Shown here piece by piece: positions 2,744-5,767 of a stretch of DNA of 64,000 bases; position 1 is the first letter of the stretch; each line of letters opens with the position of its first letter. The notes below the pieces were generated by a model. That model saw only the letters and a program-made list of their open reading frames with translations. It made no database searches and was not told the DNA's origin. The translations under genes were made by a program, and so were the position numbers. Source of the stretch: Ghiorsea sp. (lineage in GTDB: Bacteria > Pseudomonadota > Zetaproteobacteria > Mariprofundales > Mariprofundaceae); NCBI GenBank assembly GCA_027080505.1, contig JALWRX010000123.1, forward strand, positions 40,705-104,704. Reading direction: 5' to 3'.

Positions 2744-3595
2744 TTGATGATGGAAGATAAAGAAAGTCGTCCAGTACACACCATTAAACGTCGTGGTATT
2801 TATATCCTTCCTAGCATGTTTACCTTGCTTGGTTTGCTTTGTGGTTTTTATTCACTGGTGAGTACGATTCAGGGCAATTATGAACATGCAGCTTGGGGCA
2901 TTATTGGTGCTGCAATTTTTGATATGTTGGATGGTCGTGTGGCACGTTTGCTAAATGCGGAAACGGCATTTGGTGCAGAGCTTGATTCTTTGGCTGATAT
3001 GATGTCATTTGGGGTTGCACCTGCAGTATTGGTTTATCTGTGGGCACTAACACCTTATGATAAGTTGGGTTGGTTGGCTGCCTTTTTGATTGTGGCTGGC
3101 TCTGCGCTTCGTCTGGCAAGGTTTAATGTGCAGCTTGCAAGCCAAGATAAACGCTATTTTCAAGGTTTGCCCACCCCCGCATTGGCTATTTTCATGGCAT
3201 CGGGTGTGTTGTTTTATTCATCTTTTGATGCCACGCCATCGAGTGTGTTGTGGTTGATTTTAAGCATTGCTTTGGCATGGCTTTTGGTGAGTAATGTTCG
3301 GTTTTTGTCGGGCAAAGATATTGATTTGAAACAAAGACGCTCGTTTGCAGTGTTGGTTGCTATTTTGGCTGCTGTTGTGTTGTTAGTGCTTGACCCTGAG
3401 CGCGTATTGTTTCTTGTATTCTTCGCCTATTGTGTGCATGGACCCATCATGAGTGTATGGCAAGGGCAAAAGGCGGCGCGGTTGCGTTTGAAAAAACGCT
3501 TGGCTCGTGCCAAAGCAAAACAAACGGCAAAACAAACATCAAAACAATCAGTAGAACAGTCTGTAAAACAAGATGACATTGACAATGCAGATTAA
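2744..3595 (+). CDS. pssA: CDP-diacylglycerol--serine O-phosphatidyltransferase
   Basis: CDP-alcohol phosphotransferase signature DMLDGRVARLLNAETAFGAELDSLADMMSFGVAP; multiple TM segments. Confidence 0.92.
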   Translation: MMMEDKESRPVHTIKRRGIYILPSMFTLLGLLCGFYSLVSTIQGNYEHAAWGIIGAAIFDMLDGRVARLLNAETAFGAELDSLADMMSFGVAPAVLVYLWALTPYDKLGWLAAFLIVAGSALRLARFNVQLASQDKRYFQGLPTPALAIFMASGVLFYSSFDATPSSVLWLILSIALAWLLVSNVRFLSGKDIDLKQRRSFAVLVAILAAVVLLVLDPERVLFLVFFAYCVHGPIMSVWQGQKAARLRLKKRLARAKAKQTAKQTSKQSVEQSVKQDDIDNAD

Positions 3596-3608
3596 TTCTG
3601 CGCATACT
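3579..3608 (+). promoter_or_regulatory. Candidate sigma-70-type promoter for leuL-leuA (TTGACA - 18 nt - CATACT)
   Basis: Perfect TTGACA at 3579-3584 and CATACT at 3603-3608, just upstream of the leader ORF. Confidence 0.4.
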
Positions 3609-3615
3609 CCGCCGC

Positions 3616-3693
3616 ATGAATATTTTTAATCTGTACCTGCTCTTTTTAAGCGACACACTTTTATTGTGCCGTTTTGGCTCGTACACGGACTAA
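3616..3693 (+). CDS. leuL: leu operon leader peptide MNIFNLYLLFLSDTLLLCRFGSYTD
   Basis: 25-codon ORF with 7 Leu codons including a consecutive Leu-Leu-Leu run (3658-3666), followed by a Rho-independent terminator and leuA. Confidence 0.75.
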   Translation: MNIFNLYLLFLSDTLLLCRFGSYTD

Positions 3694-3733
3694 ATAGAGT
3701 AAAGTTTTATTTAGTATTTGAAGTTTCGAGCCA
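3675..3733 (+). promoter_or_regulatory. Candidate antiterminator structure of leu attenuator
   Basis: TGGCTCG (3675-3681) is complementary to CGAGCCA (3727-3733), which overlaps the 5' arm of the terminator. A nested helix ACTAAAT (3689-3695)/ATTTAGT (3709-3715) lies inside. Confidence 0.6.
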
Positions 3734-3756
3734 CGGTTAATCCCCGTGGCTTTTTT
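3730..3756 (+). terminator. Rho-independent terminator (leu attenuator)
   Basis: GCCACGG-TTAATCC-CCGTGGC followed by TTTTTT, 39 nt before the leuA ATG. Confidence 0.85.
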
Positions 3757-3794: not shown

Positions 3795-5339
3795 ATGTCT
3801 GACCGCTTATATATTTTTGATACAACATTGCGTGATGGTGAGCAATCACCCGGTTGCTCGATGAATATTGAGGAAAAATTACGTATTGCCCATGCGCTTG
3901 CGGCATTGGGTGTGGATGTGATTGAAGCAGGGTTTCCTGTAGCCTCACCTGATGACTTCACTGCGGTGAACCGTATTGCTGCAGAAGTACCTGATGCCAT
4001 GATTGCAGGTTTGGCAAGAGCGCACCCCAAAGACATTGATGGAGTGGCACAAGCGATTAAACCTGCAGGTGATAGAGGGCGGATTCATACTTTTATTGCA
4101 ACCAGCCCCATCCATATGGAAGCTAAGCTTCGCATGAGCCCTGATGAGGTGGTGGAGCGCGCGGTGGCAGCGGTGAAACAAGCGCGCAATTTGGTGGCGA
4201 ATGTTGAGTTTTCCGCTGAAGATGCAGGGCGTTCTGATGATGATTTCTTGTGCCGTATTGTTGAAGCTGTGATTGATGCAGGGGCATCAACCATCAATAT
4301 TCCTGATACCGTGGGCTATATGACCCCTGGTGAATTTGGTCGTAAAATCAAATTGTTGCGGGAAACTGTGCCCAATGCGGATAAGGCGGTGTTTTCTGTA
4401 CATTGCCATAATGATTTGGGGCTTGCGGTGGCCAACTCTTTGGCGGCTGTGGAAAATGGTGCAAGGCAAGTGGAATGTACCATCAATGGTTTGGGAGAGC
4501 GCGCGGGCAATGCCGCCTTGGAAGAAATCGTGATGATTTTGAAAACGCGTTCGGACAGGTATGCGATTCAAACAGGTATTGATACCACGAAAATTGTGCA
4601 AACGTCCAAGTTGGTTTCACAAATTACTGGTATGCCTATCCAAGCCAATAAAGCGATTGTAGGCGCAAATGCGTTTGCTCATGAATCAGGTATTCATCAA
4701 GATGGTGTGTTAAAACATAAAAAAACTTATGAAATCATGACTCCTGAATCAGTGGGTTGGAATACTAATCGTATGGTATTAGGTAAACATTCAGGGCGTG
4801 CAGCATTAAAGGCACGGTATGTTGAATTGGGTGTTGAACTTGATGATGAGCAATTGGTTGCCGTGTTTGAGCGTTTCAAGGCGTTGGCAGATAAGAAAAA
4901 AGATATTTTCGATGAAGATTTACAAGCTATTTTGAATGAGGATGCGGAAATTAATACTGAACATGTCAAACTTGTAGCATTGCATGTGGCATCGGGTACT
5001 AAGGATGCACCCGTGGCGGCGGTGAAATTGGATATTGATGGTGAAATCTTTGAGGCAACAGCCAAAGGCGATGGACCTGTGGATGCTGCATTTAAAGCGA
5101 TTAAGTCTTTGGTTGAACCCAATGGTAAACTTTTGTTGTATTCTGTGAATGCGATTACAGCAGGCACAGATGCGCAAGGTGAAGTAACTGTTCGTTTGCA
5201 AGATGGTGAACGTATTGTGAATGCACAAGGCTCGGATACGGATATTGTGGTGGCTTCTGCAAAAGCATTGATTGCAGCGCTTAATAAGCTACCCAACATG
5301 CACGCCAAAGGTGTGCATGCGCAGTATAGCGGAGTGTAA
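3795..5339 (+). CDS. leuA: 2-isopropylmalate synthase
   Basis: [45 protein letters not shown], regulatory C-terminal domain. AAGGAG precedes the ATG at 3795; the ORF-track start 3774 is probably too far upstream. Confidence 0.95.
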
Positions 5340-5341
5340 TC

Positions 5342-5767
5342 ATTAAAATCATTGCTTATACAGACGGCGCATGTTCTGGAAATCCTGGTCCTGGCGGTTG
5401 GGGTGTGTGGCTGCGTGCAGGCAAACATGAAAAAGAGCTGTGCGGTGGTGAAAAGGAGACCACCAATCAGCGCATGGAGCTGCAAGCGGCTATTGAAGCC
5501 CTTAAAGCTTTAAAAAAACCATCTTCGATTACGATTGTTACTGATTCTAAGTATGTGTTGAATGGCATTACAGACTGGATTCATGGTTGGAAAAAGAAAG
5601 GTTGGAAAAACAGTAAAAAAGAACCTGTAGCCAACCGTGAACTGTGGGAAGCTTTGGATGCCTTAAATCAAATCCATGATGTGGATTGGCAATGGGTGAA
5701 AGGACATTCGGGTGATGAAGGCAATGAAAGGGCAGATGAACTGGCTAGGCAGGGTATCCCAAGTTGA
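5342..5767 (+). CDS. rnhA: Ribonuclease HI, probable AUU start codon
   Basis: [23 protein letters not shown]...[18 protein letters not shown]...[24 protein letters not shown]...[18 protein letters not shown]. The catalytic Asp (TDGACSGN) is upstream of the ORF-track start (5405), and GGAG at 5331-5334 sits 7 nt before ATT. Confidence 0.88.

Follow-up and report, generated by a model that had tools for sequence, protein, structure and literature searches.

How is leuA controlled in Ghiorsea sp., an iron-oxidiser-type bacterium of the Zetaproteobacteria? A sequence-only reading of the 199-nt intergenic region between pssA and leuA had proposed leucine attenuation, based on a short Leu-rich open reading frame, a strong GC stem with a U-tract ahead of leuA, and a complementarity that would make two RNA structures mutually exclusive. 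Do these elements form one regulatory device, or have unrelated features merely come to lie side by side? Comparison across the class makes it very likely that leuA is governed by a leucine-responsive transcription attenuator in this region, with a leader peptide predicted to be read from a leaderless mRNA. The attenuation reading is supported by a conserved reading frame, by compensatory changes in the helices and by folding at defined ribosome positions; a protector hairpin, a predicted promoter and the leaderless geometry are additions to it. Positions given here are those of the window, the whole 64,000-nt stretch of Ghiorsea sp. DNA that was analysed, on its forward strand. The elements are as follows.

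3579 to 3608, forward strand: predicted sigma-70-type promoter, TTGACA (3579-3584), 18-nt spacer, CATACT (3603-3608); from a consensus scan and relatives.
3616 to 3693, forward strand: leader peptide ORF, leuL-type, MNIFNLYLLFLSDTLLLCRFGSYTD and stop; from sequence, with the Leu-rich ORF kept in 46 loci.
3632 to 3685, forward strand: protector (1:2) hairpin, UGUAC 3632-3636 with GUACA 3681-3685, plus an inner hairpin around the Leu codons; from the consensus fold of 17 close relatives, with compensatory changes.
3658 to 3666, forward strand: control codons CTT-TTA-TTG (Leu-Leu-Leu).
3675 to 3681, forward strand: segment 2, the antiterminator 5' strand UGGCUCG, within the final codons of the leader ORF; from complementarity and cross-group compensatory changes.
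3689 to 3715, forward strand: small A+U-rich stem (ACUAAAUAGAG...UUUUAUUUAGU) inside the antiterminator; from the consensus fold.
3727 to 3733, forward strand: segment 3, CGAGCCA, common to antiterminator and terminator; from sequence and its pairing with segment 2 in relatives.
3728 to 3756, forward strand: intrinsic terminator with a 9-bp stem, a 7-nt loop and a U-tract; from a pattern scan and both alignments.
3795 to 5339, forward strand: leuA, 2-isopropylmalate synthase, the regulated gene, with the strong Shine-Dalgarno (SD) sequence AAGGAG just upstream; from NCBIfam.

The identity of the flanking genes is clear. The leuA product, starting at the ATG at 3795, scores 819 bits against NF002087 (cut-off 729) and 727 bits against TIGR00973 (cut-off 598.7), and pssA is likewise identified by NCBIfam above cut-off. 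The regulated gene thus belongs to the same pathway as the Leu codons of the leader. That leader runs from the ATG at 3616 to the TAA at 3691-3693 and has 25 codons, seven of them Leu with three in a row, exactly as had been read from the letters. Taken alone, such a frame is just moderately improbable by chance: among dinucleotide shuffles of the intergenic region, 2.1% contain an ATG ORF that is 15-40 codons long and includes Leu-Leu-Leu, and 1.4% contain one with at least 28% Leu.

The doubt left by these single-sequence statistics is removed by conservation. We searched for leuA in 78 genomes from this class and in GTDB representatives, including relatives in the Mariprofundaceae (Ghiorsea and Mariprofundus), and found the same layout of Leu-rich ORF, protector hairpin, antiterminator and terminator in 46 distinct zetaproteobacterial leuA upstream regions. 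Of the 43 distinct class loci in which at least 150 nt separate pssA and leuA, 42 have the element, as do four of the nine loci without a detected adjacent pssA (L016, L029, L140, L141); none of the 16 distinct upstream regions with at most 100 nt between the two genes carries it. The 46 leader peptides are 23-32 residues long, 269 of their 1148 residues are Leu (23%), and a run of at least three Leu codons is kept in 37 loci. Since the leader sequences differ greatly from genus to genus (for example MNIFNLYLLFLSDTLLLCRFGSYTD, MNSQFSAFTTATKYLLLRTGLCVC and MKRTFFLLLLTLPLLWWCRLVCNEHTD), conservation of the run reflects more than close kinship. Relatives lacking the Leu-rich ORF, which would have spoken against the proposal, were thus not what the gap-qualified loci and the four others revealed.

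Where would transcription of this leader begin? In the window, the predicted promoter overlaps the 3' end of pssA and its -10 element ends 7 nt before the leader ATG. The best-promoter scan gave the same distance in 39 of the 46 leaders and 6 nt in five more, a count that is by itself partly circular because the loci were picked with a pattern that includes promoter-ATG spacing. We nevertheless judge the spacing to be real, given the 42 of 43 loci recovered when the denominator is defined by gap length, and given that GTG or TTG leader starts, which the pattern allowed, do not occur among the best matches. An SD-like 4-mer precedes leuA in all 46 loci and the leader ATG in none. A transcription start about 7-8 nt past the -10 element would fall on the AUG, which, without an SD sequence, predicts that the leader peptide is translated from a leaderless mRNA with the AUG at about +1. 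Could the attenuator instead possess an ordinary 5' untranslated region, fed by an upstream promoter, for example through read-through from pssA? In some gammaproteobacterial relatives the promoter does lie farther from the leader ATG, about 20-60 nt ahead of it, but the 6-7 nt separation in 44 of 46 class loci, the lack of an SD sequence and the coincidence of the predicted start with the AUG make this arrangement unlikely here.

Attenuation requires helices that exclude one another. The terminator was confirmed by pattern scan, with stem arms GAGCCACGG (3728-3736) and CCGTGGCTT (3744-3752) and a T-tract reaching 3756; the complementarity of TGGCTCG (3675-3681) to CGAGCCA (3727-3733) likewise matches the sequence. 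The 145-nt leader folds better than its dinucleotide shuffles (z -2.8; 3 of 200 shuffles as good). Two alignments were folded and their pairs counted: A1, with 17 close relatives, and A2, with 19 Mariprofundus-type leaders. The terminator stem is 100% paired in both and shows compensatory changes. In the protector helices, the alignment cells changed on both sides number 16 in A1, compared with 7.5 in shuffles, and 10 in A2, compared with 4.3, with 0 of 500 shuffles as high in either case; these are hand-anchored pair counts over cells, not numbers of independent events. Examples from A1 are UGUAC/GUACA, UACAC/GUGUA and GCAC/GUGC. Because these helices sit in coding sequence, part of the protector covariation could be shared codon constraint. 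The A+U-rich stem keeps seven pairs in nearly all 17 sequences of A1, and in folding it forms alongside the antiterminator.

Within each group, A1 (the window's own close group) as well as A2, the antiterminator scarcely changes, and its covariation there is weak. Between groups, pair 4 switches from U-A to C-G and pair 5 from C-G to U-A (39 loci). Anchored on the terminator arm, seven or eight of the eight pairs between segments 2 and 3 form in 36 of the 39 loci counted, and cognate duplexes are stronger than most cross-group swaps; the same duplex-swap test finds the antiterminator weak or absent in a divergent minority (L023, L024, L025, L028, L126 and L135). The mutual exclusion first proposed for the two structures therefore holds in comparison, in that segment 3 is common to both and each is kept by compensatory changes. 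In two members of this minority, L025 and L028, leader and hairpin are present and the U-tract is degraded, which suggests a decaying or differently terminating version of the attenuator.

Does the hairpin merely terminate transcription of pssA, or of a psd-pssA operon, next to a coincidental Leu-rich ORF and a coincidental complementarity? It does lie directly behind pssA, and a single ORF containing Leu-Leu-Leu is, at about 2% of shuffles, no great rarity. Yet the ORF, the promoter and the pairing of segments 2 and 3 persist across dozens of species, compensatory changes included, and the element also occurs in the four loci where pssA was not detected beside leuA. We strongly disfavour this explanation, and its probability appears very small.

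The conserved peptide end of Mariprofundus-type leaders (LLLRxGLCVC) raises a different thought, namely that the nascent chain acts as an arrest peptide and senses something other than the supply of Leu-tRNA. The final residues are strikingly conserved in this one group, but the final codons show synonymous and non-synonymous variation alike (GGT/GGC, CTG/TTG, TGC/TGT/TAC, GTC/GCC/GCT), and in other groups the peptide ends with GSYTD or GSCTD. We rejected the idea as hardly credible, since amino acids are replaced at the C-terminal end and the RNA helices persist nevertheless. A metabolite-binding riboswitch or a T-box in place of a peptide attenuator is barely conceivable. A structured leader ahead of an amino-acid biosynthesis gene would fit either, but the ORF and its Leu codons are conserved, and a search with all 4227 Rfam families, leader families included, gave no match at the gathering threshold in the region or in eight sampled loci, and none meaningful below it.

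The preferred reading, attenuation by a translating ribosome, makes a prediction about folding that we examined in silico. The 46 leaders were folded with the ribosome-covered region removed, with an assumed footprint that reaches 12 nt past the A-site codon's first base. With the ribosome stalled at the codon that opens the longest Leu run and segment 3 just made, the antiterminator has a median probability of 1.00. With the ribosome at the stop codon, this value is 0.00, and the terminator reaches 0.98. The claim that a stall on Leu-Leu-Leu frees 3675-3681, and that a ribosome at the stop codon covers it, is thereby borne out in these models. In the full-length RNA at equilibrium, the terminator is still favoured in the stalled state (median probability 0.91-0.92). 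Since the terminator is the more stable structure there, antitermination would have to depend on kinetics, which is usual among attenuators. Without a ribosome, the folding model also lets the antiterminator form early.

The attenuator would then work as follows. Transcription, as judged from the promoter, would start at or beside the A of the leader AUG, and the ORF would be translated directly from this leaderless end. With leucine as the putative signal, scarcity of Leu-tRNA would stall the ribosome at the Leu codons and hold the protector hairpin open; segment 2 would pair with segment 3 once the latter is transcribed, the terminator would be blocked and leuA would be transcribed. When Leu-tRNA is plentiful, the ribosome would reach the stop codon and cover segment 2, the terminator would form and transcription would presumably end before leuA.

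How does this leader relate to known systems? The leu leader of E. coli is a leuL-type leucine attenuator of Gammaproteobacteria. A leucine attenuator that includes a protector stem has been described for leuA of Shewanella (PMC2659441). Like these two systems, the Ghiorsea leader combines a Leu-rich leader peptide, an antiterminator, a terminator and an anti-antiterminator (protector) before leuA, with compensatory changes in relatives. Unlike them, it lacks an Rfam match, and its ATG lies 7 nt from the -10 element without an SD sequence, predicting a leaderless start. Among attenuators, leaderless leader peptides are known from trpL of Sinorhizobium meliloti (PMC7298713) and from leuL1, leuL2 and trpL1 of Streptomyces lividans, where LeuL2, before leuS, is Leu-rich and has a hairpin with a U-stretch (PMC8079986). 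In all of these the leader ORF begins at the first base of the transcript, by prediction in Ghiorsea and by mapped start sites in the others, which belong to the Alphaproteobacteria and Actinobacteria, respectively, rather than the Zetaproteobacteria. In the actinobacterial LEU element of leuA, the run of Leu codons pairs with the leuA SD sequence, a pseudoknot is present and there is no obvious terminator (PMC1262725); the Ghiorsea leader, in contrast, has an intrinsic terminator and a different fold, and the segment that pairs with a terminator arm, segment 2, comes after the Leu run.

A search of the freely readable literature turned up no paper that links Zetaproteobacteria to attenuation and leader peptides. 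By comparison of sequences the mechanism is well supported, and we regard the element as a real leucine attenuator, a further case of a known type of regulation and an addition to the Zetaproteobacteria. The 46-sequence comparative set could serve to build an RNA family model, and from the nearly constant distance between promoter and AUG we predict that Zetaproteobacteria translate a regulatory peptide from leaderless mRNA. Could such a start, with AUG at +1 and 70S initiation without an SD sequence, be how leucine attenuators were originally built in Zetaproteobacteria and deep Gammaproteobacteria? Spacing is mixed among the gammaproteobacterial leuA leaders sampled, about a dozen lying at 6-9 nt and others at 20-60 nt, and we put this forward as a tentative idea, somewhat doubtful at present. 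If true, ribosome loading on the nascent leader would need neither a 5' UTR nor an SD sequence, and it may be coupled to RNA polymerase once the 5' end emerges.

Some members of the class manage without the element. In L011, L012, L145, L144, L131, L137, L027, L123 and L133, the attenuator is missing and pssA runs up to or into leuA. A relocated leader was not convincingly found for the element-less genomes in 0.4 to 3 kb of upstream DNA, pssA and leuA abutting in most of them, and the attenuator appears to have been lost there, probably in several genera.

Apart from one gene in two genomes, a genome-wide pattern search for further leaders returned just near-chance matches besides the leuA leader. 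This Ser/Thr protein kinase-like gene (L156 and L151; the same gene in G000 and G008) has a sigma-70-type -10 element exactly 7 nt before its ATG, and may be another leaderless gene. An unusual start of a different kind was noticed directly downstream of leuA, where none of ATG, GTG and TTG precedes the conserved N-terminus of rnhA (window 5339-5767). GGAG is followed 7 nt later by an ATT at 5342; the same ATT is found at similar spacing in the relatives L005 and L007, and others have ATG. This rnhA possibly encodes an AUU-initiated RNase HI.
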